Below are positions 356-48,645 of a stretch of DNA of 49,525 nucleotides, in pieces. Every line of letters starts with the position of its first letter. The stretch's first letter is position 1. The notes beneath the pieces were generated by a model. That model was not told the origin of the DNA. It was given only the letters and a program-made list of their open reading frames with translations, and did no database searches. The position numbers and the translations under genes were made by a program. This stretch comes from Gracilariopsis chorda (lineage: Eukaryota > Rhodophyta > Florideophyceae > Gracilariales > Gracilariaceae): contig NBIV01000379.1 in NCBI GenBank assembly GCA_003194525.1, positions 1-49,525 on the forward strand. The letters are read 5' to 3'.

Positions 356-370
356 TCATGTGCAGGTCGT

Positions 371-14175: not shown

Positions 14176-14178
14176 AAC

Positions 14179-19944: not shown

Positions 19945-20033
19945 TGTTAATCATCCTTACAGTACACAGCGTACAGAAGAGCGAGGTTCGCAAGCTCACA
20001 TTGTAAACGAAGATAGTTAGAGTCTTCCTCTCA
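19945..20033 (+). repeat. 3' LTR of copia element
   Basis: 89 bp, TGTTAATCA...CTCACA. It is preceded by a purine run (AGGAGAACG, 19930-19938) that may be the polypurine tract. Confidence 0.75.
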
Positions 20034-21817: not shown

Positions 21818-21945
21818 TGTTGGGATACAATTTTATAACGCCAAAGTTCGATTTTGTTTGCCTGTTTAGATGCAAAATTGAGTGTTTACTGCGATATATG
21901 AATGTTTAGATTCTGTACTCACCCCTTAAAACTAACTTGTTTCCC

Positions 21946-22257: not shown

Positions 22258-22529
22258 AAACACTCCTTATTCATTACTATAATATGGTGTGTTGCGTTTT
22301 GTAAAGGCTTGTAATGTTCACGTACCGATGTTTTACGCTAAGAGCCCTACATATACTATTTTAGGACACCAAGCCTCATGCATAAAAGTAACATTGATAT
22401 TCGACTACACTTGCATCTCAAATGTTGTTTTTAAACACTATAAAAGGAGAACAAAACCACACTCCCAACTTAACGGTATTAGATTGATTCTGTTCAAAAA
22501 CCCTCACTCAATTCAGCTTTCTAAGCTTC

Positions 22530-23656
22530 ATGAGATCTTACGAGTCTTGTGTACCAATTCACATCGGACCCCCAGTTCCCTGCAACACAACAGTTACCTC
22601 TTCAGAAGAGCATACTACTATCTCATTTGCGGATGTGCTGCAACTCACTGTACCCAAGCAAGGTGGAAACTACCAAATAAGATGTGTCCAGGACCCAAGT
22701 ACAAACGTAATGACAGAGCTGCAGGAAATCTATATTGCTGTTACTAATCTTCCCAGTCATGACGTCTTACTGCAAAAGGCTCAACTAGCCCGCCTACTCT
22801 CCGATCGATATCATATTGCCCTGTACATCCAAAACGTAAGTATCACACGTCATACCCCTAATGTCTGGAGCTTGTTCAGCCTTTCCAGATTTTTGTATTC
22901 ATCTCTCGTGCTAGGACTTGCTCACACATTGATGAAAGGTATCATAGGCGGGACAGTTGGTTTTGTTTTGAGAGGTCCAAAGAATTCTCTCTATCACTTT
23001 GCCCGCAAGGCTTTGCTCCATTGTTTCACCCAGAGTGTCCTAAACATTGTAGTTGGGGGGAGTGCAAAGCACTTTTTAACTGCATTGTGCGGAAGCTTAT
23101 GTAAAAGTCCTTTTAATCCGAGTATTGCATACTCATGGAGGACTAGATCAATACTTCAATTTGGGGTTCCTTATTAACCAGTCTGCTTCCTGTCAACATA
23201 GCCTTATATGTGACACATCTCCTCATCCCTTCTGGAAACACACTGCAATCCCATGTGACGAAGAAATGTATCGCTTACTCTCTAAGTGGGTCCCTGACGG
23301 GTGGCTTTACATACTTGCTGGATGTCTGGATTTTATCTAGATTAACAACAACACATGCAAATACTGCCTATACATTGCACCGTGATATACCAGCCAGATC
23401 CCTACTTCATGCCGCAGTGAACGCCGTAAAACGCTCTTTACGCAGTGCACTCTTCATAATCGCGCCGGCAACTACATGTCGGTTGATCGGCTTGAAAATG
23501 TTCTCCTGTACTCTAGCAGCCCTCACATCTACTCTTTTCTCTTCGCGGCATGCAGGTGGTAGAGGAACTCCCATCGTAGTCGCGAATACAATATCCACTA
23601 CGACCTCTACACTATCTAATGCTCTCAGGCTGTACGAGCAAATGGAGCAAGACTAA
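22530..23656 (+). CDS. multi-pass membrane protein, paralogue B, one frameshift
   Basis: The frame from the ATG at 22530 runs 215 codons to 23177. A second frame from about 23167 to 23656 carries the rest. Together they align to paralogue A: SYESCVPI with SYETRIPI; SPFNPSIAYSWRTRSILQFG with TPFNALDRYRWRTRAFLEFG; CRLIGLKMFSC with FRLIGIRMLSC. The break falls in GGGG at 23163-23166; one more G would restore the frame at the point where paralogue A has a second Gly. Similarity to paralogue A continues some 15 codons upstream of the ATG before a stop, so the true start may be spliced or damaged. Membrane spans as in paralogue A. Confidence 0.7.
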
Positions 23657-25154
23657 CACAAAAAACCCTTTCCAATGTTCACATTCCCCTTCAAACCTGT
23701 AAAGCCTGGACCTATGTCGACAAAGCTTGAAATAAAAAGTGCACGCATCGTACATTACCAATCTAAAACCCCCAACAAACCGCAAACCCGTTAAATAAAA
23801 CCCCAACCCTCGCGAAACCCACAACGCGCAGGATCCCAAAACGAATACCCGTATTCTTGCTTTGTACCATCATGTCGTGGCTCAGGCATTGACCCCTAAC
23901 ACAGGTTTTTGAAAATCCCTATTTCTACAAACCTAAACTGCGTTAAGTTCGTTTCCCACAAAACAAACTTATTCATTCATTTCTACGTGACCCTTTTGCT
24001 TAGGATGAAACACAACACGAACTTGTGTTCAACACGGCGCAAATTCATGTACAGACAGACCCAAACACTTTATGTTGTTGCCCGCAGTTCGTAAAGTAGA
24101 GTACGAGTCATCGCATGCCATTTACCCGCCCAATACTGGCTTTAAAACCCCTACATACTCACATCAGCAGTGATTTGGCCAAGCCACACAAAACTCTGTG
24201 TGCTTGTTATGCTTATTACACGTCAGTAAAAGAAGAGTATCTTTAATACTTTTTCAGTTCGTTCATTTCACAATTGAAATGAACGCTCATGACTGAAACC
24301 CATTTCGTTGTGTTTACCTCGTGCTACCTTACCGCCGTATACTCGCTAAAGGGAATCCATGCTGCACAACGCCCCTAGAACTGGATTAATTTTGTTTCGA
24401 AGCGGGGTGCCGCTTCAACTTTGCATAAAAGCCATTAGAACTCATTGGCTCCGTACCTGTTCCCTCTCTCTTACAGCTTTGGTTGTTTAGAGTAACTACT
24501 CGCTATTCTCCAAACGTTTTTATTACTACAACAGAACCTTTTGTAGAGCCAAACAACGTTGCGTTGTGGTCTTTTTGACATATGAAGCACTTTCCTAAAA
24601 GCCCTGAAAACCCCATATACTATCCCTAACATGGCCATACATCCTTTTAAACGTATTACATAACATAACTCTTTATATTTGAATACACATGTTGCGATTT
24701 GCGGCTTTCATACCTTCATTTCTTACATAACCACACTGCCTTTTTACACATGACTACATAACTTTGGTTGCTATGAATTTGTGTTCACATGTGCCTTTTG
24801 TTACAAACGGTGAAAGTATTGGGGGGAAACCCCGATGTGTAACTATGAGGTTTTAAAAAACCTCTCATGAAACCCCTAGAAAAATCATTAAAGCATGCAG
24901 CCCCGTAAACCTGAGAGATGGGATTTAGAACCCCCCTCCCAAAACCCCTAACATTCTAATCGCGGTTTAGGCTCGAATCCATATCCTACATATAATATAA
25001 AATGTTAGTACAGCAATTTCTGTCGTCAAACTTCTAAACAAACTTTAAGTAAGTAGAAACATACACCGACTCTTTTGTTAAAACCTTCACTTGTAATGCA
25101 AGATTCGTACTACCTACACTCCAAAAACTACAACAGCTATACCAACAAAACCAA
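23657..25154. other. AT-rich intergenic region
   Basis: No credible gene. It contains a small hairpin (24261-24284, arms GTTCATTTCA and TGAAATGAAC) and scattered AAAACCCC words around 24608 and 24937. Confidence 0.5.
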
Positions 25155-26180: not shown

Positions 26181-27518
26181 TCATCTTTCGCCAGTGTCTA
26201 TGTTCTCCCCTAAGGCCTCACTTAACTCCCTTTCAACCGCACTAACCGGGTCGTTCTCAAGCACAACAACCTCTTCGTCTAAATCTCCTAAAACCAGGTC
26301 TTCTTCTTCTCCATCTCTAACAACACCAGTGTCATCGCCCGCACCATACAACCGGGTATCCTCCTCTACAAACTGGGGCTTGAATCCCTTCTCACGATGT
26401 ACGGCATCTGAAAGATCGTACCCTTCAGGGACCATGTACATGTGATAGCGGAAATTCACGCCGTCCATACTGCTGTCTGCTCCCCCGGCCCCTGCGTGGA
26501 AAACATCACCACGCCCGACGAATATGGAGAAAGTTGGAACTAACACCTTCGTAACCACCATCCTTTTCGACACATTTCGCAAACTTTTCCAGTCGGTCAC
26601 TACGATTTTGTGACTTCCTTCACATACCCAGATTGGAAACGAGTACTCCCCGGCGATCATCATGAAATATCCGGGATTTGCTCCTTCCCCCTTCTCTTCT
26701 ACAGCAAAGCCCCGAAAGTCTGTGTGCAGAGTCTGCCGCATGCACTGTCGAGTAGTAGCTAACACCCGTCCACCAGGTTTGGGGGCGTACATCTTCCTGG
26801 TTTCCGCTCTTCGATTGTTGCCCACGCGCAACGCTGTCATCACTTGACCCAGACGGGCGTCCATCATTGCCCTCCGCTTCACTACCCAGTGTGTACTGGG
26901 GTTTTCTTCCAAAGTGTCCGCAATACCAGCGCGGGTGGTAGTGAATCGACCTTCCCCCTTCGCTCCTTGTTCTATATCACGCTCTGCAGGTCCGCTGTTG
27001 ATTATCCAGGTCCACCTCTTTCGATTCTCCTCACGGCGGAGATCCGGTTGCTCCGTGTAGTTTTGGCGGAAGAAATCCAATACAGATTCCGCACTATCCA
27101 CATCCTCACTGGGGTTCGGGAGCACTTCAAACTTCCTGTCAATAGCGAACCCGGGGAGAATACAGAACCCCTTTTCCTTCAGTTCTGCACGCTTCTCCCC
27201 AAAGTATTCCAAAGCCAGATATTCCACCTTCTTCGATACCAAGTACAAGCGATCGTAAGAACCCAAATTTTTCGTAGAAACTCCAGCCGATATAGCCATT
27301 TCACTAATGAAATCACCTCCAAGTATATTCCCCTTCATCACCCCTGACTGTTCGTGGCCAAGCATCGCGGCGTGGTAAAACACCGTGTGATGAATGTACT
27401 TGAGGTCACCTGGACTCAGAGTTCCGGCCCGATGTCCAGGTGGAAGGTGAATACATTGCAACCAAGCTCCAACATTCTGAATAGGGTTCTCTGCTTGTGG
27501 CCAAACACTGGGCAACAT
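26181..27518 (-). CDS. 2-oxoglutarate/Fe(II)-dependent dioxygenase-like protein
   Basis: The ATG at 27518 opens 445 intact codons. Residues 115-125 (KGFCILPGFAI) look like the strand leading into a double-stranded beta-helix. The iron ligands can be placed as His265 and Asp267 (TLHTDFRGF) and His341 (GRGDVFHAGAGG), with Arg357 (NFRYHMYMVP) at the place of the 2-oxoglutarate-binding Arg. FPIWVCEGSHKIVV (294-307) fits the strand between. The last ~75 residues are acidic and disordered. Such enzymes hydroxylate proteins, small molecules or modified bases (AlkB, TET/JBP types). Which subfamily this is cannot be decided from sequence alone. It is the third of three consecutive minus-strand genes leading away from the palindrome array, beside a DNA methyltransferase gene, which makes a nucleic-acid substrate an attractive guess. 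Confidence 0.75.
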   Translation of the reverse strand: MLPSVWPQAENPIQNVGAWLQCIHLPPGHRAGTLSPGDLKYIHHTVFYHAAMLGHEQSGVMKGNILGGDFISEMAISAGVSTKNLGSYDRLYLVSKKVEYLALEYFGEKRAELKEKGFCILPGFAIDRKFEVLPNPSEDVDSAESVLDFFRQNYTEQPDLRREENRKRWTWIINSGPAERDIEQGAKGEGRFTTTRAGIADTLEENPSTHWVVKRRAMMDARLGQVMTALRVGNNRRAETRKMYAPKPGGRVLATTRQCMRQTLHTDFRGFAVEEKGEGANPGYFMMIAGEYSFPIWVCEGSHKIVVTDWKSLRNVSKRMVVTKVLVPTFSIFVGRGDVFHAGAGGADSSMDGVNFRYHMYMVPEGYDLSDAVHREKGFKPQFVEEDTRLYGAGDDTGVVRDGEEEDLVLGDLDEEVVVLENDPVSAVERELSEALGENIDTGER

Positions 27519-27605
27519 AATGCTGTAGACGCACCAATCTGGAAGTGGGTGCTCAGTATTGAACGGCTCACTTCTACTTAAAGTAGACGGCCATGCTGTC
27601 GGCAG

Positions 27606-29236
27606 TTAGTCATCGAATCCTTGTGCCGACTGTTCATTTGTTCCTGTCTCGTCCTCGAATTCAACCGATTCGTCTTCCGAATCCAAGTCCATATCGATTT
27701 CTTCAAAGCCTTTCCGGAGCAGCTGGAGCAAGTCGTTGTCCTTGAAGAAGTTGAAAACAACATCAGGCTCATAGGTTCGCAGACGTTGAACTGTTGCAGC
27801 AGTCAATATCGCTCCACCTTTCTTCCTCCGTATGTTTCTTCTCTCCGTCCTGCGTCCCGACTCTGAACTAGCCGCACCCGCCGACGAAGAACGACTGGAT
27901 TTCCGCCTAGTGCTCCGACGTACAGCACTCGATTGATCAGAACCAACTGCAGGTGTTCCACTCTCAGCACTGAAGGCAACACTAGCGGGCGGTGTAGGTG
28001 GATTTAACCCCCCTGGCTTTCAGGCATACTGCCGGTTGTACGCAACCTAGAAGTCCCGGTATTAACAACCGACGTCACTCGCTCCCCGATAGCATCTGGC
28101 TGCGAAACGGAAGCCTCTTGCACGTCTGGCTCCACACGAAGCTCTGGAATCCAGTTCTCCAACTTCCCCTTGAACAACGCTACAGCTCTCATTATGACGG
28201 AGCCCTGATTGCGAGGATTGGGAACGTTCCTAAAATGGTTCACCTGGTCTACAGCAAAGTCCCGAACTGTTGTCTCACCAGTCACAGAGGCAGACATCCG
28301 GAACGACTGAGCTAAGGACGACTCCATTTCCACCTCAACCCCAAGTGCCATTCGCCTCATCTCTTCCAGTAATTGTAAAACCCTGCTGTAGAAGTAAGAT
28401 CGTAGCATTTCGAACCCAACTCGGATAGAGGGGCCCTTGGGACCGACGTAGAACATCAAGCAGTTCATCGCAAAAGTAAACTTCAGCGGTTCCATCCTTA
28501 ACAGCTTGTCAGAGGACATGTGCGTGATACCCACATTCGAATATTGCGCACAAACCCGCTCGAAAACATCCACCAACATAGGATTGTTAGCAAGCTTGAG
28601 CGCAATTTCTGATATGCGACGCAGCTGTCTTTCTTCAATCTCCTTGGTTACTGCAGAGTTTTGAAGGGCTCCAATTACCATCCCAACGGTCCGCTCACCA
28701 ACAACCACGCCCAAGTCCACATGAAGAGAGTTAATGATACTCTCTACTGAGTAAATGCGGTCCGAAAACCGCATTCTCAGTACAGACGATGCAGTATCAT
28801 TCAGAAGAACTCCAATTTCCACAATCTCATGCGACGTGAGGTCCCTCCCGTCCGGTCTCGACCAGCTGAGAACTCGAAGCCATTTCAGCACCGCATACCA
28901 CCTTGTTTCCTTGATCCTCCTCCTGAACATGGCAAGTCGAGGATGTCGTCCATCGAAGAGGTCTGGAGATACAATTATGCGCCCATTCTGAACACACGCT
29001 TCCAAAGGTCGCCCGTTCATCCGAATGGTTACACTCATCAACCCCGCCGACTCCAACAAACCCTTTCGCTCGAGCTCATTTTCCAGGCTCTGGACATGCT
29101 CCTCTTCGATTCCACGAGGACTGTGTTCTGGTAGTCGTATTAAATCCAGATCCACAACGAGTATCTGGGCTTTGTAGTCCTGCAGACGAATGGTGTCCTT
29201 CGAAAACTGTGTGTCCACTTGAACAGGTTCAACCAC
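27606..29236 (-). CDS. ParB-like domain protein, one frameshift
   Basis: A 410-codon frame (29236-28004) starts at GTG after stops; the first ATG is at residue 67, inside the domain, so the true N-terminus is probably upstream or spliced. Residues ~28-105 follow the ParB/sulfiredoxin pattern: DLDLIRLPEHSPRGIEEEHV, then a helix and ERKGLLES, then IVSPDLFDGRHPRLAMFR (DGRHPR at 95-100, the phosphate-binding signature). Residues 110-330 are helical. The frame ends in a C6 run at 28008-28013; one more base would extend it ~130 codons through a basic Ser/Arg linker and an acidic end (MDLDSEDESVEFED) to 27606. ParB-fold domains bind nucleotides and, in bacteria, load onto palindromic sites. No HTH was recognised here. 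The DNA array at 30.4 kb is close by. Confidence 0.65.
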
Positions 29237-29289
29237 ATCGTCCTATCATTCGACTGACCCAGAACTTCAGACCTAATCTGAACTTCATC

Positions 29290-30088
29290 CTAGTCACTAC
29301 CGAAATCGCGGGCTACCTTCACACTCCCCCTACCTTCCTCCGCAACAGACTCGGCAACAGGAATGGGTGTATGATTTTCAGATACAGCACCTGCATCTTC
29401 CGTAGACTTCCCACCCTCACCAGTACCCACGCCCGATAAAGAGCTGGACGCCTGGCTCTTGTGAGGCGCCACCTTCTTAGCGGATACAACCGCGTCCCCT
29501 GATGGTGTTCGAACGCTTGATGTGTTCTTGACACTAGCCCTCGTGGGCGGTAAGGGTAGAACCGTAGCCAACCATCCTCCGTTCGCTTGGATTTGTGGCT
29601 TCTGAGCCGGGCAGCGGAACGGTTTTCGACAGACTTGTGTTGCGCGATATGGTAGGTAACCGTCGGCTTCGGGGGGACTGTGTCGTCGAGCGAGTTCCTC
29701 GGGCAATCGCTGTAGAGCGCTCCTGACTTCGGCTGCTTGTACCGGACGCCCCTGTTGAACGAGGAGAAGGTCCAGGGAGTTTTCGGGGGCGCATTAGCTT
29801 CAGGTCCCAAGCATACATTCCATAAAACGTCATCCCGGATAAATGCTTCGGAGGGGGTTCGGTTCCTTTAAACGGGTATGGATAGGCCTCCATTTTCTTC
29901 TCTACTATGGTGATTTTGCTCACCACAACCAGATCCTCCCCGGGTTTCGCACACACAGACAATGGATGTCCGTGGAGAGTGCGGCGAAACTCCCCTTCGG
30001 CCTCAAACACTATAGCGACCCCAACGACATCCCCGTTCGCCAGAAGCAGAGACACTGACGCCCCTGGCACGATTGCTGATGAAGACAT
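29290..30088 (-). CDS. hypothetical protein with conserved-looking N-terminal domain, frameshifted
   Basis: The ATG at 30088 opens 184 codons. The first ~100 residues look like a compact beta-rich domain (GASVSLLLANGDVVGVAIV, LHGHPLSVC, GEDLVVVSKITIVEKKMEA, PYPF, YGMYAWDLKLMRP). This is reminiscent of small domains found in plant transposon proteins (DUF8039-like), a tentative comparison only. Past residue 100 the frame becomes Ser/Arg junk-like, while two other minus frames (29319-29810 and 29290-29706) look better in turn, so one or two frameshifts or an intron are likely. The end (SGVGTGEGGKSTEDAG...) is low-complexity. First gene of the minus-strand set, 322 bp from the first palindrome. 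Confidence 0.5.
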
Positions 30089-30410
30089 GCTCGTGTGTGG
30101 AGTTATTTCAGAACGGAAACGCTTGAGGATAGGCGCAGACGTATGGCGGAATGTTTCGAGCGATGAAACGATAACGTGTAGCGTGCTTAGAACACGCTTT
30201 ACTAAGCCTTAAGCGGTGGCGGATGGACTCACGCAAACCCCTGAGTCAACAGCCCACGACGGCACAGTACAACAGTCGCAACCATTCCCTCCCTTACTTT
30301 ACGAGACCCTTCTCGGAAGGGGCGCCAACTGCACTATTTTATCATTTCGAATACGGGCTATTTTCAATACCCCCATTTTCCAAATTTTAGGGACACTTTC
30401 CCATAATGGT

Positions 30411-32283
30411 GTGTCGAGCGACAGGCCTGGTTGTGCACGACAGGAATGAGTTCCTGTCGTGCATGGCCAAGCCTGTCGCTCGACACAATACCCCCCCAAA
30501 ATAAACTCCAAACAAGGGGCCGACGGCGCTAGGCGCAGGCACACACGTGTCGGGGAACGTGCAACTCCTACACGTATGTGCATGAGCCACGCCCCATGCG
30601 CATCAACATAAATAATTTTTCAAATATTTCCGCCAGCCGGGTGTGTCGAGCGACAGGCATGGCTGTGCACGACAGGAACTCATTCCTGTCGTGCACAACC
30701 GGGCCTCTCGCTCGACACACCCCCCACATTAATTAAAGCAAAAATAAAGGCGCGGGCAACGGCGCTTGACACAAACCCACACGTGTCAGTTTGCGTACAA
30801 CTCTGACACGTATCTATATGCCCCATGATGCATGCGCTGTCCATGAAAGAATTATTCCAATTTTTTGGGCCGCCAAGTGTGTCGAGCGACAAGCCCGGTC
30901 GTGCACGACAGGAATGAGTTCCTGTCGTGCACAACAGGGCTTGTCGCTCGACATACCCTCCCTCAAAAAATTATGTGAAAACAAGGGCACAGCCGACACA
31001 GCTTGGCGCAGGCACCCACGTGTGAGAGGACGGACACCACTGACACGTATTTGCAACGGCCATGCCCCTTGCACACTCCTTCAAAAAATATTTTCAATTT
31101 TTTTGGCCGCCAGCTGTGTCGAGCGACACGCCCGGTCGTGCACAACAGGAATGAGTTTCTGTCGTGCACAGCCATGCCTGTCGCTCGACACAACCCCCCC
31201 CATAATTAATGCAAAAATAAAGGCGCGGGCGACGGCGCTTGCCACAAACCCACACGTGTTGGGTTACGTACACCTTTGACACGTATCTATATGTGCCATT
31301 ATGCATGCGCTGTCCATGAAAAAATTAATTCAATTTTTTGGGCCGCCAAGTGTGTCGAGCGACACGCCCGGTCGTGCACGACAGGAATGAGTTCCTGTCG
31401 TGCACAACCGGGCCTGTCGCTCGACACACCCTCCCTCAAAAAATTATGTGAAAACAAGGGCATGGCCAACACCGCTTGGCGCAGGCACCCACGTGTGATA
31501 GTACTGACACCACTGACACGTATTTGCAACGCCATGCCCCTTCCACACTCTTTCAAAAAAAAATTTCAATTTTTTTGGCCGCCAGCTGTGTCGAGCGACA
31601 CGCACGGTCATGCACGACAGGAATGAGTTCCTGTCGTACACGGCTGGGCCTGTCGCTCGACAGAACCTCCCCATAAGTAATGCAAAAATTAAGGCGCGGG
31701 CGACGGCGCTTCACACAAACCCACACCTGCTACTCTACGTACACCACACACACGTATATTCGCATTACCTCAAATACTATTTCTTTTTTTAGGCCGCCAG
31801 CTGTGTCGAGCGACACACCAAGTCGTGCAGGACAGGAATGAGTTCCTGTCGTGCAGGACTGGGCGTGTCGCTCGACACATCCCCCCCCCCCCCCCCCCCC
31901 CCCCCCGGAAATGAATGCAAATATGAAGGCGCGGGCAAGAGCACTTGGCACAGTCCCACGCGTATCACTTTACATACAACAATGATACGTATGTACATGC
32001 GCCACGCCTTTTGCACACTGCTCTCATTTCATTGATATGTTTTGGGATCCGATTTGTGTGCAGCGACACAGCCTCTCGTGCACGACAGGAATTCGTTCCT
32101 GCCAAGCACGCACGGGGCTGTCGCTCGACACAACCCGTGCTATCCATGTTCTAAAATATAGTATAAAATTGGGAGAGTTTCGAGGTTTTAAAACGTACAT
32201 GGCGTATAGTATTTCTATTACAGCGGTCGTGCACGGCAGAAACTGGTTCCTGTCCGCCGAGTACCGAGCTGTCGCTCGACACT
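30411..32283. repeat. higher-order tandem array of eight 76-bp palindromes
   Basis: Imperfect palindromes of ~76 bp lie at 30411-30486, 30643-30718, 30879-30954, 31116-31191, 31352-31427, 31588-31663, 31803-31878 and 32056-32131, with a half-site at 32227-32283. Spacing is 232, 236, 237, 236, 236, 215 and 253 bp. Each arm starts GTGTCGAGCGACA and the centre is GTGCACGACAGGAAtgagTTCCTGTCGTGCAC, so TGTCG or its complement occurs about six times per palindrome. The second palindrome has its centre inverted (ACTCATT). Spacers carry a second inverted repeat (ACGTGTCAG...CTGACACGT). Two spacer types alternate (units 2, 4, 6 versus 3, 5), making ~472-bp dimers. No coding potential is believed here. 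Confidence 0.95.
31881..31906. repeat. 26-base poly-C run
   Basis: An uninterrupted run of 26 C residues directly after the seventh palindrome, at the position where other units have 5-9 C residues. Length may be unreliable in an assembly. Confidence 0.9.
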
Positions 32284-32347
32284 ACAAAGCAACCCCTTAC
32301 GCCAACACCCGTTCGTTTTGAATCACCTGCATTTCAAGGTGTACCCT

Positions 32348-32353
32348 TTTATA
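32348..32353 (+). promoter_or_regulatory. possible TATA box of the methyltransferase-SET gene
   Basis: TTTATA within CCCTTTTATACCAGC, 81 bp before the ATG at 32434 and just downstream of the palindrome half-site. Position is suitable for a short leader. No other evidence. Confidence 0.3.
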
Positions 32354-32433
32354 CCAGCTTTAGTCTCATCTCCGACAAGAACGACGCATTCTCTACTACC
32401 TCCTCCGTCGGTTCGATCTAAAAACCCGTCAAC

Positions 32434-35400
32434 ATGCCACAATATGCAAGCACAGTGTCCGCATTTTTGGAATTACGTGACAACTATGCCGCTGAACGTA
32501 CACCGGAAGACCAACCAAGGGACGTGAAATACAAGACCATTGCCGAGTTGGCTATAGCAACACGTGGTTCGTCACCGTCTGCCATGGAGTTATGCAAACA
32601 GGCAATTGGTTCCTCCGATATGTCAACTTTTGGAGACGTGGAGGTACTAAATGCCTTAACTAACACGCACTCGCCCAAGCACAACGCTTTGCAACAGGCC
32701 TTTCAAATCGCACGGTCCCTAGATCAGATGGATAATGAAGAGGATCGTCCTGTCAAGGACTACTACCGCTTATGCCAGGCGCGAAGGTTTCCCTTCACTA
32801 TACGGTATTTACTTGCCAATATCGTTAGGTCTTGTGTGGATGGAATGAGCCTCAGAAGAAAAGGGAGGGACGAAGTCACTACCGAAAGAGCGACACGCTT
32901 TCAGGTTCTTCTATATCTGAGCATGTTCGTTCTGTTAACTCAACGAATGAAGGCTCTCTCAAAGAAGCGAAAACGCTCTGGTTCCACCGACGACCTAACA
33001 CAACCTCAGGCAATCCCTTTAAAGAATTTCGGGGATCAGAACTGCAATGGAATTGCATATGGCGTGCAACAGGTTGTTCGTTCTTGGGACAACTTCGCCA
33101 CATATCCTGGTTTCCACAACACCGAATCGATGCTAAGCGCGTATCTATCCTGTGACAGTTCATCTTTACTCTTCAAACCTCTAAAGACTCGCATTGAAGG
33201 GTTCGTACCGCTCAGACAGTCCTTCTCTCTTATCGGAGATATAACCCCCAGAACGACATCATCGGGGGTTGATAGCCACGCCTACGCACTTCCGCAACAT
33301 GTTGACGAGGGACTTAGAGCTCTGGCAGAAGAATTCCTCAATGACATTGTCACGGTCATCTCTCACCCATGCCTGTACGAAAAGGGAGTTGAACAATGGT
33401 TACTACTATTGGAGTTCCTCCCAGACGTGAAGCGGGCCCAACTGGACCCACGGCATACCCGACATCGTTCGTATCCACAACGATTCGACCGGCTAAGTGA
33501 GAATCTTTGGGCTCCAATCCGAACAGCTAACGCCCAGGTACCTCCTACCTCTAGTGGTGAAGGACAAACCTCAACTGTTCGCACGTTGGAAGTCATTGAC
33601 TTGGTCACCAGTCCCAACGATGAACTGGAGCCAGACACGCCTCCTGAGCAATCTCTGAGACCACAAGACGCAGACAGCGAGGCTGCTCCAAACGTTCAGC
33701 CAACGACTTACCTCCCTTACGAGGTGGAAGGTACTGGTGTATTTCTGCCAGACGAAGACGTCAGTGGTACGGTTTGGAAGGCAATAGAGATAGTGGAGCG
33801 GGAGATGATGAAACACTATGTCATGTACTCTACTCCCTACGACGAACTCCCTCCAGTCCACAATACTCTCCGCTCCACAGATTCCGTCCCATATGAAGAT
33901 GCCCAGTTCGCTTTGCTGGATGCTCCAACGCTCCTTCGCGCTGCGGCAGACAGAAGGAACAGTGAGTACGACGCCTCAACCGTGGCTGAAATAAAGGGCG
34001 TTGTGAGTAATGTCGCTTCTCCGTGAAGGAGGCCATTTCGTTCTATTCCGTTCCGTTGAACTGTTCCTCAGTTGGCGGAAAATGTTCCGAAACGCAACTT
34101 TGAAGGATGAGGACGGTAACGATGAACCGGTTTTTAAGGTGGATGCTTGCCCACTTCACTTCATCCGAGGGTCAGGTATATCATAGCCGCACCTGGAAGA
34201 GCATCTGGAGAACTACTGACAATTGTGGAATACGCCGTTCACGGGGTAAAGGTTGTTGCTTCCCGGGAACAGGAACAATCTCAGGTGAACTAAATGAACT
34301 TCAACCACGTATCCTCCACGGTTGCTGGTTATAAAAACGTTATAGATAACGTACCGACCTTGGATGTCAATGAGACTCTCATGTGGTCTAAATTGAACCC
34401 GAGTGACCAATTGATGCGTGAAAGGGTTCGCGCTGAACAGAAACCAATTCGTCTTGCGAGGGAACTTATAGCGCGGTTCTCCAACCCGGGTGACACGGTT
34501 GTAGACCTCTTTGCCGGTACTTTCTCTACCGCCCTCGCCTGTATGTCTTTCAAGCGTGGTGAGGGTCGTAAATTTGTTGGGTGCCAAAAAGATCCGGCAT
34601 GTTTCTACCACGCAAAGCATGCTGCCATCAAATTCTTCTCACGGCTCATTGCTGAAGACATGGCAAACGTCACGGTAACTCAAGGGGTTTTGGACGCTGC
34701 TCGATTAGTAAGCAATTACTTCCAGACCTATATTCGCCCTTCAAAAGTTTGGACACCACCCAAACACTTTCCACATTACCAGAGATTCCCACAACATATT
34801 ATGTTTCATTGCGCATCCAAATGGAACGACAACCTGTTTGCTTGCAAATATATCAACACGGAATTGTCTCAATGGCCAGCACAGTATCAGGGCGCTTTAA
34901 ACCTCATGGATGCAATGGACTTACGTGCTGTGGAAGCTACATCCTCTTGTCTGGTCATCGCAAAGTCTACTATAAACCATCCTAATGCAGGCATTGGGGT
35001 GTTCGCCGGAACAACTTTCACGCGAGGGGAGATAGTTTGTTATTTCTACGGTACACTTGTCTACCACGACCTTTCTCAACGCCAGGAGATCCGCAAGACA
35101 TATGGAGAGGGGCCCCTGGGTGTAACCGCTTCACAGTTTCGCTCGTATGCCATGGAGGTTGATGTCTCTATCCCGGATTTTGCCGCCTTGGTTGGTCTCA
35201 ACCGGGACACGAGCGAACTTCAATCTTTATTTCGCCGGCCCCTTTCTGTATTGGTGGCTACATCAATGACCCAAGGTACATTGAGGGCGATCTGGACATC
35301 CAAGCTGTCCACGACAAGTATAAAAAGAAAAGAACGGAGAATGTAACCTTGGATAAGCACAAATTGGCCTCCATTCGAAACAGGAAGCAGCTCGAAGATT

Positions 35401-35534
35401 ACACCATAATAACGATTCGTGCAACTCGCCGGATTGAGCGTGGGGAAGAGTTGTTTTTATCTTATGGTGTAGAGTACTGTTGGAAATCAAACCTCCTCGA
35501 CAGCAGAACCAGCAACACCTCCAATGCTTCGTAG
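32434..35534 (+). CDS. beta-class DNA methyltransferase fused to a SET domain, several frame breaks
   Basis: Frame 1 (ATG 32434, 530 codons): ~450 unrecognised residues, then STPY (466-469) in the place of the catalytic D/S-PP-Y motif IV. Frame 2 (34010-34186): EGGHFVLFRSVELFLSW, typical of the strand after motif IV. Frame 3 (34294-35346): EQKPIRLARELIARF (motif X-like), then VVDLFAGT (AdoMet motif I, residues ~71-78) and KFVGCQKDP. This IV-X-I order is that of the N6-adenine/N4-cytosine beta class. From ~residue 225, GIGVFAGTTFTRGEIVCYF starts a SET domain, which ends in another frame (35255-35534) with GGYINDP and RIERGEELFLSYG. Breaks: near 34015, near 34170 (a G3 run), an in-frame TAA at 34291, and C4 at 35239-35242. 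The last is repaired by one base; the stop is not, so decay or an intron remains possible. SET domains methylate lysines. The fusion suggests joint DNA and histone marking. Confidence 0.7.
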
Positions 35535-35893
35535 TCCAGTAAACACCAAACTCCAGTTACCCCTCATACTCCTCTGCTCCACTGTATGGGTACCGCACAC
35601 CTGCTAAAACCTGGTCACAATATGCATTAAGTAATTAGCTTTCCCTAAGATCTTAGCCACGTCTTCAGTTCGTTCATTACAGATGTTAAAGCACCCCTCA
35701 TACAAATGCGCAATTGCACTATAATAAGCAAACACGTTACCGTGTTAAACTGTTGCACATCCCCAATACGATCTGCCCAGTATATCTTGATCGTTCACAC
35801 TCCCCCTCCTCTTACCCATCCGTATACCTCAGTGAGAGCATTGTGAAACCCACTTCGACTATACCCTATAAACTCCTCCCCACCCTCATCGTA
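35535..35893. other. intergenic stretch
   Basis: Promoter-side region of the zinc-finger gene. CTATAAAC (TATAAA at 35867-35872) lies 22 bp before the ATG, rather close for a TATA box. The frame of the downstream gene stays open 60 codons upstream to 35714 but has no ATG there. Confidence 0.4.
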
Positions 35894-38108
35894 ATGGCAA
35901 ACGCAACGCTTAATATGGCTATCCTCTCGTCTCCTGCAACTCCACAGAGTCTGCCTGTCAACTTTAACACCGTAACACTAGGCGTACATGACGTTTTGCA
36001 CGTTATGGTTTGCGTGGACTGCCAACTGGCGTTCCGTTCAAAGCGCTCGATGCAATTCCATCTCAGACATGAACCGCATTACATGGAACTTCTTGAAGCC
36101 CAAAAGGCAACAAATGAGCTGCATATGGTGTGTGAAAACACTCGTTTATTGGGAACCCACCCCCTTTTTAACCGTTACGATGTTCAAAACCGAAATGCTC
36201 TACAGGACGTACTACCCCCTCTGTTTGGCCTTCGAACCGAACTAGGTCTCCGATGCCCTGAATGTGGATTTGCCTGGGTGGATACGGCCACCCTCCAAAA
36301 ACATATATCAGAATCCCACAATACGGATATAAGCTTTGCGCGTAATGCTGTCCAGAAAGAACTCGACCGGGGAAGATTGCGCGTTCACAGCGTTTTCCGT
36401 GGAACTCATAAACGGTCTTTTGCGGTTACAAATGACAACCCAGTGGGCTCTGTTTTACATCGACGGATTCTTATGCTGAAAAGCACACGGAAGCCTACCT
36501 CCCACTCAACACCCTCGCAGACCGACCACACAAGTATCGCCCGTGATACCCTCCCACAAATCGCAAATAAAACGCAGCCAGTGTTTGTTGAGAACCGCAA
36601 ATCTCTTCCGGATCGTCCTCTTGTGACGTCGAGGACCCTCCCCGGTACCAAGCTTGATACAGTTAACTTAGTATCGAAAACACAAAACGCACCGTATACG
36701 GGTGCGTACACGCAGCATATGGAGACGTTTATTAGGGATTTGCGCCCAAGCCGTTCGAAGACTCTAATTGGAAGCAATATCGCCGATGAGAAATGTCGTA
36801 ATTACTTCATCCAGAGCACGAAGTTGGACTTGGCCCTTGAAAGCCTTCGCATATCAATGGAAGACGCAGTATTTCTTTCGGGCGCGAAGTTGGTTGAAGC
36901 CCGGGGCAATAACCCAGATTTCTCAAAGCTTTCCGCAAACATCGTTCAGTACATGCAACGAACACCGTCCATAATGTCCACCTTACCCCCTTTTTTTCTG
37001 CATAGTTTGAACCAACGAACAAACTTTGCTTTCAAAACCGTGCGCCTCGATACGTTACAGAGGTACGCTCTAGACGTTGCAAGGTTGCTGTTCTTTGTCG
37101 CAAACGCTAATACCCGCTCCCATGACTTGGTGCCAAAATCGGTCGCCAAAATGACTGTGGAAGTCATCACAATTCCCAATATGATGAAGAATCTGCATGC
37201 GTCCCTAAAAGCATGTTTGTTACAGAGTCTTCAACCGTACACGCCAACGAGCAGGTTGTTAGTCCGTAATTTTGTTGCTTGTGCCTCGGTTCTCAAATTT
37301 ACGGATTGCGAACTGGACAAGCCTATTTACAAATACGCCGCCGCTGAAGCCATCACTCACTTGCTTGCGGCTTTGCAATACGCTGTCGCAGCATCTGCCA
37401 TCCATGAACTACACACACTCGGACAGTCTGGTGTACAAAATACGGAAACGAACGTTTCTGAGATGGCGAGCCTGACAACGTCTCTAGATATGCAGGCAAA
37501 TACCGCATTTTCTTTCATAAGAAACACTCTGAATGTTGCTATGAGCATTGCGAGAAAAGAAAGCCTAAATGTGTCATTTTTACCATGTACAATCCACACC
37601 AACTGCGGAATTGTTAAGGATGTGCATCTAAGCTTGTCGCAGGTGGGTAATCTCGTGCAGGAGTTAAACACGGAAATAGAATCTGTTATTTCGAATGATC
37701 TGCTCGATTGGTTTCCCTTCCCCCCTTGTTCAGCACACACTTGACATCGTTGAAAGATTCACCTTCAAACAGAGCCCCGGGATTTTCTTTCCTTATACAC
37801 CCCCAAAACACAAGCTTCATCCAACAAAACATGGAATATGTACTACAATGTCTTAGGAAGGGCTCTGCCTCCGGCTCCCACGTTCCATGCTTCCTCCTAG
37901 ATGACCCAACTAAACGGCCTTGGATACGATTCGGCTTGGCCAGGACTTCCTGCTTAGAAATGGTATATTACGTTGGTTGACGTACGCCCAAAAGATTCAT
38001 GAACGACTGCTGGTGGCGCTGCATCTGGCTTCTGGCTCTCCAGCGAGAGGAACAGAAATTGAATCCTACCGCTTGCATAACGATGACACCCATCTCCGTT
38101 CTCTTATT
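35894..38108 (+). CDS. OrsD-like two-zinc-finger protein (TLH/RecQ-associated type), interrupted by Ty3 insertion
   Basis: Start chosen at the ATG at 35894 (MANATLN). Two Cys2-His2 fingers open the protein: CVDCQLAFRSKRSMQFHLRHEPH and, ~85 residues on, CPECGFAWVDTATLQKHISESH. This pair matches the DUF3505/OrsD arrangement found in fungi at the front of large telomere-linked RecQ-type helicases and related selfish proteins. The long middle is helical. After a stop at 37744 the protein continues in two further frames (37708-37980, 37920-38108) to LVALHLASGSPARGTEIES, the GxPARGTE motif that normally precedes the helicase part. Both shifts are repaired by one base (C6 at 37723-37728; near 37930). 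The reading frame then runs into the 5' LTR at 38109. Any helicase domain would lie beyond the window. Confidence 0.7.
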
Positions 38109-39022
38109 TGTAGTGCAATACATTCCCGCGTACGGGCGATGGTGAAACTCATATCTGAGGTGTACTCGGGGCGAGCGATGAAGCGGGATGCATGAATTTT
38201 AGCCCCCGTTTACCGGGCTAATTAGCGGTCGGGTTACCCAGGGTGGTTATGGGAACGTTCATATTTTGTGGTACTTGCCTGGCAAGGGTGGTGGACACGT
38301 GGCTACAGCCCCGGCCAGGAGGCCCAAAACGGCTACTTATTTTAGTATAGTTTAGGGGTTAATTTTACTTAGGCTAGTGCACTACCTACTGTACTGCACT
38401 GAGCTAGTACTTGAGCGTCGGCCGCACGGCGGCGAGCTCACCAAGAAAAGTAACAAGAGTTCGGCTCTGACTCTATTCGCCATGCGAAGTGTCTAACTCC
38501 TCGCGGAGGTACACCGCTTGCCCGATAGTTTCACCCGACTCGCACCACCGAGGAGACCGTGCTCGTCGTACCCAGTGGGTTGTGACCACTCGTGGTATTC
38601 GTTGTTGTCGTGTGACCGCCCGTACAGGCCCTATCTCCGCCCCAGTTTTGGGTATTGATATTACCGACGTGTGTCGTGAGACCGTGAGACCATCCCTTCC
38701 CCTCATATCCCCTAACCGCCGCGCGGTGCGTGTTCGTGTGTGTGTATCGGCACCCCCCCTCCGGGGTCTGTTCCCGCTTTCCGCACGCCCCCGTCGGGTG
38801 GTCCCTTTCCCTCTTTTGTTCCACTGTTCGCAGGCTACTTCCGGACCAGCCGTGGTTCCGACCGGTTCTAACCCCTAAACCTCCGAGGTACATCCAGGCT
38901 CCCGACGGAGTTACGCCCGTCATACGGGACACGGAGGGCTCTACCCAGCTGGGCCTACCTCTCCAAGAGAGCAAGGCTTCGAGCTGCCTTGGGTGCCTTT
39001 CCCACACCGGGATTGCACCACA
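38109..39022 (+). repeat. 5' LTR, 914 bp
   Basis: Begins TGTAGTGCAAT and ends ATTGCACCACA, an 11-bp terminal inverted repeat with one mismatch, which fixes both borders. It contains no credible gene. Transcription signals were not identified with confidence. Confidence 0.9.
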
Positions 39023-39024
39023 AG

Positions 39025-39043
39025 TGGTCTCCCGACCTAGAAC
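39025..39043 (+). other. primer-binding site
   Basis: TGGTCTCCCGACCTAGAAC starts two bases after the LTR, as expected for pairing with a tRNA 3' end (...GTCGGGAGACCA). The tRNA species was not recognised. Confidence 0.6.
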
Positions 39044-39171
39044 GGGTTTGGCTTTCAATCCGGCCTGTCGGAAGTCCGCTTCCCCTTTTCCCTTTTATCC
39101 CTTTTTGCTCATTCGTTGAGATTCCCAAGCCGTGGGACTGGTGAAGTAAGCCGTGGACGGCTATCTGCAGT

Positions 39172-41214
39172 ATGCTACCCACAGCTCCGAGTTCCCCCAG
39201 GAATGGTCCGCAACGGAACGCCGCAGCGGCGAGATCACGAAGGTCCGTTCCGGAACAACTACTTACCAATGCCGTCGGTCTGGAATCCCAAGGAATCCCA
39301 TCGGCAACCTCGGTGCCTCGAGCCGTGAGAGCTGTGGCCACTACGCCACCTCCGGTGGTCGAAACGCCGTCGGCTGTCCCCCCGAGACCCGGGTCGCCTA
39401 AGTACCATCTCCTCGAGTCGAGAATCGACATTGCCAATGTGGCCCACGCCTCCCTCTCGCAGCAAGTTACCGAGTTGGAACGGCGATGGAGTGACTCCCT
39501 GGCTCGGGATTATTCGGGAGATATTCGTCTCCTGAGAGCTGATGTGAATTCCATTCTGGAGTGTCTGGGTACTTCGGCTGCCTTCGTAGAAGGATATCGG
39601 GAGTTCGTGGAGGAAGTTAAAACCCATATGATGCGGGTAACCGGACGTATGGACACGCTGGAAGCGTTGCTCAGAGAAGACCTGAACGCTCCGAGACAGG
39701 AGGAAGTGAAGGTCATCTCAACCCAACACCGCTCCAGTCACCTCCCCCGTCACCCTGGAAAGAGAGTTCATCGTTATGAAGTTTCGCCAAGTTCCGACTC
39801 GGAAACAAGTTCGAGTAGCTCGTCTTCGAGATCATCGCGTGAAGGGAGAGGCCGCCGTCGCGGAGAAGAACCTAGTTCGAGGGCTACCTACACCTCCCAT
39901 GGAGCAATCCGTGCGCGGGAGAAAGGTCGCCGTCATTTCGGCTTGAAGGAATTGAAACCGACGAATCCCCTTTACAGGAAGCTGTTGTCCTATCGTTATT
40001 ACCGATTGGAAGACTCTTCGGGCACTCGAAGTTCGAGAGACACCGGTCGGGTGAAGGATCTCATACGTCGTATGAATGTGACGATGCTTAAGCAGAAGTT
40101 CTCCGGTGAAGATCCGATCCTCGTGTTGGATTTTCTGGCCCGCTTTGTGCAGGAAGCAGACGTACTCGAAATGAGTGAGGCGCAGGCATACGTTGCGTTG
40201 CCCTACTTTCTTTCAGGAATGGCTGAAGATCAGTACAACTCGGTCAGGGGTTCGTCCAGGGCCTCAGAAGGAGGTGTTACGTGCTGGCCCGAGGCTGTAC
40301 ACTACCTGCTCAGGTCGTACGCGACGGGAACTGCAATCAGTCAAGCCATCGTGGCGGTTCGCGATACGAAACAGAAGCCTGGTGAAACGGAAACGTCGTA
40401 TTCAACTCGCTTGAATAAAGCGTTTCATCGTTGTGGAAATGTGTTTACCGCTTTTGAGCGTTGCTCCATGCTGGTGGATGGTTTAGATCCTGGTATCAGG
40501 GCACTGGTGTCCCGCTACAGGGAAGAGAAGCGCAAGGCGACGTATCTGGAACTGGTCCAGTACGCGCAGGCTGAGGGTGACACCCTCAGAGCGAGAGACC
40601 CGAGGCGTCGGTCGTCGAAGGCTCTCTTCGTCGAGAACGAGGCTTCCTCGGCATCTCTCCCTAACCCGGGACCACCTTCCGGATTTGCGGATAACATCCA
40701 GTATCTTGGCAGTCTTGAACAGTCGTTGGAAACCTCGGAACTGCCGTCCACGGTTACACCCCCCGTGGTAGATCCGGCCTTTTACGCAAACCCCGGTCGG
40801 GTTCCCCCAGCCCCGCTAGCCTACGCGTCGAGCGCCACAAGACACTCCCGCCCGGGATGGTCCAACCCGAAGCAACTAGCATTCCAACCACAACACCCTC
40901 AGCACCGCGGAATGATGTCCCACGCCACCGGAACACGTTCAGCCCCGCTGATTTGCTACATTTGTTACCTTGAAGGTCATACTGCGTCGCAGTGTACCCT
41001 CCCCATTCGCGAGATGTGGAAGATCGTGGGAAATTATGAGAATCTCCCACCGGAGCATAAGGCTCGTGTCCCGAGTAATTCGTATGAAGACGCAAAGGCT
41101 GCGGTCCACAATGCTCAAGCTCGAGAAGCCGCGAAAACCGCGAACGGTAACAACCCTAACCTTTCGGAACGGGCTCAGCCGCACGCAGCGGTCGATTCGG
41201 TCCCGAAAAACTAA
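39172..41214 (+). CDS. gag: Gag polyprotein of Ty3/gypsy element
   Basis: The ATG at 39172 opens 680 intact codons. Residues 1-75 are Pro/Ser-rich. 80-190 is helical (coiled-coil look). 205-235 is a Ser/Arg-rich stretch (SSSDSETSSSSSSSRSS in part). The region ~290-470 (FSGEDPILVLDFLARFVQEA, then VALPYFLSGMAEDQY) fits the retrotransposon Gag capsid domain. A CCHC zinc knuckle, CYICYLEGHTASQC, lies at ~595-608. It packages element RNA into particles in the cytoplasm. The stop TAA (41212-41214) follows CCGAAAAAC. Pol lies in the minus-one frame and overlaps the gag end, so a minus-one shift on the A5 run is the probable route to Gag-Pol. Confidence 0.9.
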   Translation: MLPTAPSSPRNGPQRNAAAARSRRSVPEQLLTNAVGLESQGIPSATSVPRAVRAVATTPPPVVETPSAVPPRPGSPKYHLLESRIDIANVAHASLSQQVTELERRWSDSLARDYSGDIRLLRADVNSILECLGTSAAFVEGYREFVEEVKTHMMRVTGRMDTLEALLREDLNAPRQEEVKVISTQHRSSHLPRHPGKRVHRYEVSPSSDSETSSSSSSSRSSREGRGRRRGEEPSSRATYTSHGAIRAREKGRRHFGLKELKPTNPLYRKLLSYRYYRLEDSSGTRSSRDTGRVKDLIRRMNVTMLKQKFSGEDPILVLDFLARFVQEADVLEMSEAQAYVALPYFLSGMAEDQYNSVRGSSRASEGGVTCWPEAVHYLLRSYATGTAISQAIVAVRDTKQKPGETETSYSTRLNKAFHRCGNVFTAFERCSMLVDGLDPGIRALVSRYREEKRKATYLELVQYAQAEGDTLRARDPRRRSSKALFVENEASSASLPNPGPPSGFADNIQYLGSLEQSLETSELPSTVTPPVVDPAFYANPGRVPPAPLAYASSATRHSRPGWSNPKQLAFQPQHPQHRGMMSHATGTRSAPLICYICYLEGHTASQCTLPIREMWKIVGNYENLPPEHKARVPSNSYEDAKAAVHNAQAREAAKTANGNNPNLSERAQPHAAVDSVPKN

Positions 41215-41216
41215 TC

Positions 41217-44200
41217 TTGGGAGTCTCCCCCACCGGAGGGGTGTCTTCCAAGCCGAAGTTGGAGACGCCTGAGGCGCCACCGCTTCGCTCCCCTGCCAAA
41301 ATCCTTACGAGGAAACTGGCTCAAGAAGACGTGAGCTCGGACCACTTAGTGGCTCTGCGTCGTCCGTGGATACGGTCCCGTAACCTCCGCATCCCGGATC
41401 GAGTTTTGGTAATGGCCAAGAGGAACTATAAAGTTTATAGTGACCTCGGTCTCTCTAACCAGTTCATGGTTCGTCAGTTATCTGTCCTGGATACAGGTGC
41501 CGCTCCGAACCTGATCAATATCGGGATTATTCCACCCGCCATGCGGAAATGCATTCGCCTTGGTCCAAGTCTGGATCTGGCGGACGCTAATAACAACCCG
41601 CTCCAGACTCTTGGAACAATTCCTCTGGTACTCAGACTAGGCACCTACGTGGTGAAGTTGGACTTCATCGTATGCGATTCTCTTGCTGCACCGGTCATCC
41701 TCGGTTGTGATTTCTGTGACCGCTTCGTGGAAGCTATCCGCCCTCGCTCCAGATCCGTAGAATTGGCCAACGGTTCGACCATCCCGATTGTACGGAAGCC
41801 CTTGCGACACGCCTCCCGTAAACGGGTACCTTTACCTGCTGCTCAGGAAGCGTCCAATGTGGATCGAGCATCTACGAAGATTCGCGTCGCGGAACCAGTT
41901 TCGATCCCGAAGGAATCTCAGGTGTGGGTTTCAGTAACATCCAAACACCACGGGTTGCAGGTTGTTCAACCGCTCCCCTCGCTCTACGAACAGCGCCGTC
42001 TCGCATTAGCAAATGGGATCGTATCCGTCGAGCCGGACAAACCCTTTAAGGTTCTCGTTGCTAACCTCGGAACTACCACTCAGTGGTTGGTTAAAAACCA
42101 GGTCCTGGGCAACATGCTTCCGCATCCGTTGGCCATCCTTCCTACAAAGATTCCGATATCCGACGTTCTCGGAATACAAGACCCTAAGGAGGGGGAGGAG
42201 GTCCCGTTCGTTCCGTTGGATCCCGCCCGGGAAAGTTCAGATTCGACTGTCGAAGAAGCTCAGAAGAGCACGACTTCAGCATCGGCAGATACTGCGTTAG
42301 ACCCAGAACAGGCTTTGGATAAGTTGGACCTGGATCACATTAATGAATCTCATCGTGAGAAGTTTCGTGACATGCTCAGGGACTTTACCGCCATGTGGGA
42401 CGGTTCCCTGGGGACGATAGGGGTAACCGAACATCGGAATGATTTGTTGCCGGATACACGGCCTATTGCACAGCACCCGTATCGGGCAGGCCCTAAAGCA
42501 AGGGGGGAAGAGAAATCTCAGGTGGAGAAGATGCTGCGAGCTGGAGTTATCGAAGCAGCACAATCCCCTTGGGCTTCTCCTGTTGTCCTTGTTCCGAAAG
42601 CCGATGGATCATGGCGTTTCTGTGTGGATTACCGCCGCCTGAATGCGGTTACTGTCAAGGACGTCTATCCGATTCCACGAATGGACGAGTACATTGACTC
42701 CCTGGGGAGCGCAACGGTGTTCACTACCCTCGATGCCAATTCTGGATACTGGCAGGTCCCTATTAGGAAAGAAGATCGTGATAAGACCGCGTTTGTGTGC
42801 CATCAAGGACTATATCGCTTTAAGCGAATGCCGTTTGGACTAACGAATGCCCCAGCTACATTCCAACGGGCAATCGATATCCTCTTGGCGAGGTTCAAAT
42901 GGACCAGCTGTCTGGTATACTTGGACGACATTATAGTTTTCTCCAATAACTTGGACGATCACCTGTCCCATGTCCGGGAAGTCTTGACAGTGCTCCGCAA
43001 CGCAGGCATCACCCTGAAGCTGGGAAAGTGTGAGTTCTGCGCCGATTCGGTAAAATATCTGGGGCACATCATCCGCCCCGGACAGCTTTCAATCGATGAA
43101 GCAAGAGTGAAATCACTTCGAGAGGCGAAACATCCGACTAATCAAACGGAGCTTCGATCCTTCCTAGGACTTTGCAATGTATATCGCCGATTCGTCCCGA
43201 ACTTCGCCGACTTGTCAGCACCGCTTAACGCACTCCTCCGGAAAGGACAACCCACCGAACTGGACGTCTTTGACGAGGCTGAGTCGTCAGCATTCTCGTC
43301 TCTTGTCGACGCTGTAACGTCCCCGCCAGTTCTGGCCTTACCGCACCCGGACTTACCCTTCGAAGTGGATACTGACTCAAGTGCCCACCAGGTGGGTTGT
43401 GCGTTGTTTCAAGTCACGGAAGAAGGAGAAAGACATCCGATCGGATATTGGTCACGTTCGTTGAACGTTCACGAGCGCAACTACTCGGTGTCCGAGAAGG
43501 AGTGTCTTGCTGTTGTTTGGGCGTTGGCAACGCTTCGCCCATACCTTATGGGTAACCATTTCAAGGTTCACACCGATCACTCGGCTCTCCGTTGGCTACT
43601 CGAAATTCGAGAACCGTCGGGCCGCCTCATGCGTTGGCGTCTCCGACTCTCGGAATTTACATTTGATGTCCTCTACAAGAAGGGATCCCTGAATACTCAG
43701 GCTGACGCCCTATCGCGCTTAGGAACATCAGCGGAAACCGAACCGGTCGACGATCTGGAAATACCATGTTTCATGGCACAATCCCCGGAGGGAACGGAAG
43801 AAGACGACCCAGACGTGAATGGGGATGACATCTGTGACGATATTCTGGCTGCAAACCCTACGGATCCTCCGGATGACCAGGTTGTTCCCATATCCCCTGA
43901 GGAAATGATCCGTGAACAACAGCAGGATCCTTTCTGTGCCCAGATTCGTGCCCGTCTTAACGGGGGCGCACAGATACCCTTTGCGGTGAACGATCGAGGC
44001 TACCTAGTCAGGTTGCTGACACGGGCCCCACAGATCGTTGTACCTCACACGCTGCAGCAGCGCGTCTTGCATCTATCGCATTACGCGAAGTTGGGTGCAC
44101 ATCCCGGCGGGAGGAAACTATACCTGACCCTTCGCAGGGACTTCTATTGGCCTGCTATGGCATTTGACTGCTATGCAGTTCGCCGCTCGTGCGTGGAATG

Positions 44201-48643: not shown

Positions 48644-48645
48644 TG

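Follow-up and report, generated by a model that had tools for sequence, protein, structure and literature searches.

A multi-copy element family in the red alga Gracilariopsis chorda with methyltransferase-SET and dioxygenase-like genes diverging from an array of long palindromes

Introduction

What kind of genetic unit gathers a DNA methyltransferase, a SET domain, a putative 2-oxoglutarate (2OG) dioxygenase and an OrsD-type zinc finger around a single array of long palindromes? The question is raised by a 49,525-nucleotide stretch of DNA from the red alga Gracilariopsis chorda (contig NBIV01000379.1, here C379), which we call the window. An initial annotation, made from the sequence alone, placed five genes reading away from such an array between positions 26181 and 38108, and proposed that they form a selfish module for marking or partition, pointing to the known association of 2OG (TET/JBP) genes with large DNA transposons. 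We searched the 91.3-Mb G. chorda genome for copies of the genes and of the array. The array, the divergence of the genes and the methyltransferase, SET and OrsD domains were all confirmed, and the gene limits were corrected. With about even confidence, we take the window to hold a single decayed member of a family of large mobile elements present in many copies. The chromatin-modifying proteins of such an element would act on its palindromic control region, probably to counter silencing by the host.

Results

The genes and the array recur together at dozens of loci in a fixed divergent layout with the array between the genes; they are not single-copy orthologues whose association is confined to this locus. 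Matches to the methyltransferase-SET gene defined 116 places (117 match rows before split rows were merged), and matches to the dioxygenase gene, taken from the best 95 of 209 candidates, defined 86 (102 rows before merging). A dioxygenase lay within 20 kb on the 5′ side of 45 of the 116 methyltransferase places; all 45 pairs were divergent, and 43 of them were 3.6-8.0 kb apart. On the 3′ side, three methyltransferase places had a dioxygenase within 20 kb, each more than 18 kb away. Assigned by identity alone, the methyltransferase places fall into subfamilies A (the window's own; 14 places, 11 paired), B (18 places, 8 paired) and C (84 places, 26 paired), the count for B including one place (C985, 63% identity) that is probably a decayed A copy judging from its dioxygenase and array. 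Among those of the 185 array matches that were listed, we hand-picked 20 A and 11 B arrays; both genes flanked 12 and 3 of these, respectively, one gene flanked 5 and 7, and neither gene flanked 3 and 1.

One subfamily, represented by the copy at C550, has spread recently. The 2400-bp gap of this copy (L151) was used as a genome query, and the best 40 of 161 candidates were scored. Five loci, C550 included, match its full length at 99-100% identity, 19 match exactly bases 424-1004 at 99-100%, seven loci of five other types also retain palindrome 1, and nine are partial or cut. The young copies are the 19 short ones and those at C550, C241, C745, C204 and C114. In 16 of the 19 short copies a methyltransferase match starts 676-677 bp downstream, and in 15 of these 16 the matched stretch contains no stop, with open frames of 428-647 amino acids (608 in 11 copies). 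The smallest young unit consists of a palindrome and methyltransferase-SET. Dispersed copies with common limits, by which a mobile element is recognized, are therefore present in this genome (in a further search for dispersed copies, the best 40 of 48 candidates were scored). Bases 538-806 of L151 are missing from three copies (C332, C421 and C901), and this common deletion ends at the dyad of palindrome 1 (806/807).

The genes have been under constraint between subfamilies. Comparison of A with B (130 pairs), for which synonymous divergence (dS) is saturated, gave median proportions of nonsynonymous (pN) and synonymous (pS) differences of 0.34 and 0.81; by part, these were 0.29 and 0.77 for the methyltransferase and 0.31 and 0.84 for SET. 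Within subfamilies, the median ratio of nonsynonymous to synonymous divergence (dN/dS) was 0.63 for A (78 pairs) and 0.79 for B (45 pairs), values that fit copies in decay.

The array of the window, present as the initial annotation had reported, comprises nine units with start spacings of 232, 236, 237, 236, 236, 215, 253 and 151 bp (repeat family D6), and the genes on either side point away from it. When the window was scanned over its full length with strict palindrome criteria, five long palindromes were detected, and all of them lie within the array, which is far beyond chance. Palindromes occupy the gap in all three subfamilies, in units of about 75-86 bp spaced 236 bp (A), about 112 bp (B) and 236 bp (C) apart, and their sequences differ. 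The subfamily C gap at C550 contains two 86-bp palindromes 236 bp apart, one of which is perfect (43 + 43 bases), and their letters are largely different. The B arrays (L152-L154) have units every ~112 bp (107-113) and parts of the A motif in common; the strict scan, which had detected the palindromes of A and C, gave no match in these three arrays, whose units, read from the sequence, consist of two nested inverted repeats with an unpaired spacer. The place and form of the palindromes have been kept while their sequence was replaced, as co-evolving recognition would predict. The equal 236-bp spacing in A and C may be due to chance.

The five genes first proposed are present as pieces of three genes, all of them broken in the window (Table 1). 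On the right of the array, an "unrecognised" 530-amino-acid open reading frame (ORF), the methyltransferase ORF and the SET domain belong to one gene, gene 2, which runs from 32434 to ~35507 on the plus strand. A stop at ~34026 and a frame break near 35172-35241 interrupt it in the window, while at C637 its frame is open over 1039 amino acids; the supposedly separate protein is the N-terminal part of its product. This N-terminal domain aligns at least partly with 15 of 18 outside methyltransferase-SET relatives (best 7996 candidates scored). The predicted methyltransferase-SET fusion was upheld: PF01555 matches the window ORF (1.1e-10), a better copy, L014 (1.2e-11), and 4/4 outside relatives scanned (3e-19 to 4e-17), and PF00856 matches L014 (5.7e-6, 27.1 bits against a cut-off of 22.4) and exceeds the cut-off in three of the four relatives, P0001 falling below it. 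In a precomputed domain list, PF01555 is present in 18/18 outside relatives and PF00856 in 12/18. The family has a deep tree, in which support is good for 6 of 18 inner branches, and over 332 residues P0001 and subfamily C are 92% identical. The fold, modelled for a relative, is that of a beta-class DNA methyltransferase, the fold-comparison rows covering mainly residues 439-732.

The catalytic motif of active beta-class enzymes, (D/N/S)PP(Y/F), reads DPPY in 10 of 16 subfamily B and C loci checked (changed in 4, not mapped in 2), and DPPY or DPPF is present in 18/18 outside relatives, including P0001. DPPY suggests adenine as the methylated base, and N4-cytosine enzymes share this fold. In the window (34294-35346) and in the other subfamily A copies, DPPY has been lost although the gene was kept and copied. 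CpG hypermutation, a sign of 5-methylcytosine, was not seen among the best matches to the window at up to 18 loci (transition/transversion ratio 1.34 at CpG vs 1.41 elsewhere). According to a review (PMC8566409, citing Lee et al. 2018), methylation in G. chorda affects ~8% of the genome and lies mostly outside CG, and the lack of a CpG-specific mutation excess is in keeping with that report.

We considered a viral origin and rejected it. IMG/VR loci matched only the methyltransferase region, at query residues 440-768 (at least 600 stretches, of which 114 passed and 80 were kept), and of the 66 records of a phage collection that matched the methyltransferase part, none spanned 80% of the query; P0020, a relative of the gene on the other side of the array, had no match in that collection. 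Pfam scans of ORFs covering part of the element showed no viral hallmark.

On the left of the array, the ORFs annotated as 2OG and ParB-like are one gene, gene 1, which spans 30088-26184 on the minus strand and includes an N-terminal piece extending to 30088. Stretches of two better copies (L041, L070) map to the window as four separate pieces, the frame being broken near 29750 and 28010; open frames of 1349 amino acids (C172) and 1417 amino acids (C204, C550) exist elsewhere. The N-terminal part resembles the corresponding ends of the P0020 protein (E 4e-6) and the subfamily C protein (E 6e-17), and outside relatives of the ParB-like/2OG protein number three. The HxD...H...R residues of 2OG-Fe(II) dioxygenases are present in 6/6 sequences compared, and among 28 genome copies checked, HxD is kept in 23, the second H in 26 and R in 26. 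These catalytic residues agree with the dioxygenase assignment, whereas the window ORF had no Pfam match. A fold model (pLDDT 42) gave 0 matches at E <= 0.001, and the 50 fold rows shown are weak neighbours, other 2OG oxygenases, at E 4e-3 to 4e-2. TET/JBP identity was rejected: no Tet_JBP match at E <= 1 was found for the window ORF, P0019-P0021 or L041. For the ParB-like part, DGxH is present in 5/5 sequences and DGxHR in 4/5, and the likeness to ParB comes from this motif. No ParB-type profile matched in Pfam or PHROGs, and the structural model is too poor in this region. A search of Protein Data Bank (PDB) sequences gave nothing for the ParB-like/2OG alignment and one chance-level row for the ParB-like piece, hence no credible match.

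Downstream of gene 2, the OrsD-type zinc-finger protein was correctly recognized (PF12013, 6.6e-9; a PDB sequence search returned a zinc-finger row), and its gene, gene 3, is longer than had been noted. The full form in the C58 copy encodes 998 amino acids. P0023, named "Bloom syndrome protein-like [Gracilariopsis chorda]" and identical over its 680 residues (100%) to a locus at C220, overlaps the end of the 998-residue protein and continues into a RecQ-type helicase (DEAD domain PF00270, 9.9e-15; Helicase_C domain PF00271, 23.4 bits against a cut-off of 23.5). The series R-K-R-H-Y is the signature of tyrosine recombinases; it can be read by eye in the 998-residue protein and P0023, with no profile match. 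RecQ matches, hand-merged from 80 rows, define 47 places, 26 of which have a methyltransferase on the 5′ side, on the same strand and within 6 kb. Beyond the RecQ part of the C58 copy, fragments of an XPD-type helicase (DEAD_2 and Helicase_C_2) lie on the minus strand (L069 1695-3608).

Table 1. Parts of the element in the window, in window coordinates.
Feature	Position	Strand	Remarks
2OG-dioxygenase part of gene 1, broken	26184..27518	-	HxD, H and R residues; at least 102 match rows in the same genome
ParB-like part of gene 1, putative	28004..29236	-	DGxHR motif; no profile match
N-terminal part of gene 1	29293..30088	-	C58 copy maps at 97% in two stretches; resembles P0020 and subfamily C N-termini
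Palindrome array	30410..32285	.	9 units of ~75-84 bp (75-86 bp across subfamilies), between genes 1 and 2
N-terminal helical domain of gene 2	32434..33900 (right limit approximate)	+	Aligns with relatives; helical in model
DNA-methyltransferase domain of gene 2	33988..34621	+	Limits transferred from L014 (PF01555, residues 385-595); DAPT replaces DPPY
SET domain of gene 2	34996..35507	+	PF00856 in L014 residues 721-880, mapped; frame break near 35172-35241
Gene 3, OrsD zinc finger/recombinase-like	35894..38105	+	PF12013; P0022; stop at 37744, cut at ~38106 by gypsy long terminal repeat

Position 38108 is not the edge of the module. A Ty3/gypsy element whose long terminal repeat starts at ~38106 cuts the module there, and the C58 copy continues further, past C58:286001; left limits vary between copies. 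No transposase matched among the ORFs scanned with Pfam, which cover part of the element. The gypsy element is young (38106-49525, terminal repeats 99.2% identical over 884 bp), with an ORF in gag position that has no Pfam match (39172-41214), pol (41217-45632), a separate small ORF with a chromodomain (45691-46416) and, on the opposite strand, a 521-amino-acid ORF with no Pfam match (46753-48318). Farther left in the window, a 1.71-kb unit is repeated head to tail at 1-3793 (two full copies and part of a third), and the region 12227-24108 recurs at C497, with shorter parts at C743 and C104. The left limit at 12227 is common to all three, and another element may begin there. One telomere-like match was found in the genome, too few to judge telomere linkage.

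Discussion

We propose that the core of the element is the divergent gene pair over its array of long palindromes, and that gene 3, with OrsD, tyrosine-recombinase-like motifs and RecQ, probably provides movement. The element's proteins would recognize the palindromes of their own subfamily. There, the methyltransferase-SET protein would mark element DNA and nearby histones in subfamilies B and C, and histones only in A, while the dioxygenase protein would remove or oxidize marks at the same palindromes. A balance of the two proteins might allow expression from the divergent promoter region despite the silencing of repeats by the host, much as VANC proteins act for Arabidopsis VANDAL elements; in the window's subfamily the DNA-methylation step has probably been lost, leaving SET and DNA binding. 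According to the accessible part of PMC8566409, H3K27me3 marks repeats in another red alga. From the initial annotation we retain the idea of a selfish module that has its own array of sites and carries methyltransferase domains for both DNA and histones; the TET/JBP link and partition are not retained, and DNA methylation by the window's subfamily is doubtful.

A bolder version, which we put forward tentatively and think more likely wrong than right, is a two-layer chromatin code. At palindromes specific to each subfamily, methyltransferase-SET would methylate both DNA and histones, and the ParB-like dioxygenase would recognize the same sites and erase or oxidize the marks, such that each subfamily marks only itself. 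The palindrome with methyltransferase-SET would be the minimal spreading unit, as if self-marking sufficed, and the A methyltransferase would now be a non-catalytic binding part in a protein that kept SET.

Several observations weigh against the preferred interpretation. Seventy-one of the 116 methyltransferase places have no scored dioxygenase partner; contig ends explain part of this, and the figure is an upper bound because the dioxygenase list holds the best 95 of 209 candidates. The young short derivatives match just a small piece of the dioxygenase gene, and 21 of the 47 RecQ places have no adjoining methyltransferase. Element ends, target duplications and empty sites were not found, the letters read stopping short of the ends. 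As to the proteins, the ParB identity of the gene 1 part is unproven, with no profile support, and the putative recombinase identity of gene 3 comes from motifs read by eye, with no profile match. None of the 14 subfamily A copies has DPPY (DAPT in 9, other changes in the rest), while most of them retain motif I, which binds SAM. With DPPY missing from all 14, the A-type enzyme probably does not methylate DNA, and writing of DNA marks, as proposed above, therefore applies to B and C. Where SET domains usually have NH, nearly all A and B copies checked have ND, which makes SET catalytic activity in the element uncertain.

The main rival to a self-marking element holds that the palindromes are sites of recombination or replication, such as cruciform origins or recombinase crossover sites, to which methyltransferase-SET and dioxygenase are unrelated. 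We regard it as a real possibility that falls short of being likely. The recombinase-like/RecQ gene within the element would suit it, as would the three copies whose common deletion ends at the palindrome 1 dyad (806/807). Palindrome 1 is also retained in 31 of 40 scored loci (24 full or short copies and seven further derivatives), but the query was that very region and is biased towards retention. Moreover, a crossover site needs no multi-unit array, and wherever both genes were found the array lies between them, in the place of a control region. The genes might instead be passengers, multiplied with a stretch of algal DNA by an unrelated large transposon, an integrated virus or segmental duplications. 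Ends that were not reached, copy limits that vary and neighbours and orientations that differ at clusters C117, C138, C236 and C96 are compatible with this view, which is nevertheless improbable: the same core is found in three strongly diverged subfamilies with constraint kept between them, the smallest young unit is palindrome plus methyltransferase-SET, and the Pfam-scanned ORFs in the part of the element that was read contain no viral hallmark. As for a replication or partition system, in which a ParB-like protein on a parS-like array would keep an extrachromosomal or chromosomal element segregating, the DGxHR motif and the array are what it has in its favour. No ParA-type partner was seen, no ParB profile matched and the copies sit inside large contigs; partition was not shown, and we consider it very improbable.

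Our literature search, which left most subscription papers outside, found no description of this element or of a transposon-borne methyltransferase-SET fusion. By analogy, the nearest described system is VANC/VANDAL. In the accessible text of PMC5735166, Arabidopsis VANDAL elements likewise encode a chromatin-acting protein, VANC, whose target motifs lie in the non-coding DNA of the element; these are often tandem repeats and differ from one related element to the next. In contrast, the element described here combines long palindromes, a gene pair diverging from them that encodes methyltransferase, SET and dioxygenase domains, and a recombinase-like/RecQ gene, and binding to its palindromes is predicted. 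KDZ transposons in fungi carry TET/JBP genes and are likewise mobile elements associated with a 2OG-dioxygenase gene; here, however, the scanned ORFs had no Tet_JBP or transposase match, the dioxygenase is fused to a ParB-like part and methyltransferase-SET lies opposite. Cryptons and, in the sources accessible to us, Starship elements are also large eukaryotic elements with a tyrosine-recombinase-type protein, a likeness that here is putative and comes by motif, whereas the present protein is an OrsD/RecQ fusion in a red alga rather than an ascomycete fungus. RecQ-like and OrsD-bearing sequences are combined in one repeat family in UTASa/UTASb of Ustilago maydis as well, but those adjoin telomeres, and the accessible part of the article describes no methyltransferase-SET or dioxygenase there (PMC10532341). 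The methyltransferase shares its fold and motif order with the beta-class enzymes CcrM, M.BceJIV and HpyAVI, from which it differs in its fused N-terminal helical domain and SET domain and in the loss of DPPY in subfamily A. Bdelloid rotifer N4CMT is another bacterial-type DNA methyltransferase that a eukaryote has acquired, and it too has a link to a SET protein (SETDB1, a potential reader); as described in the accessible part of PMC11065753, N4CMT has SPPY and makes N4-methylcytosine, unlike the combination of DPPY and SET in one protein on a repeated element that we find here.

If our interpretation is true, this family would offer a direct test of how DNA and histone marks are coupled and of how a selfish element resists silencing, and young copies at 99-100% identity make such experiments realistic.

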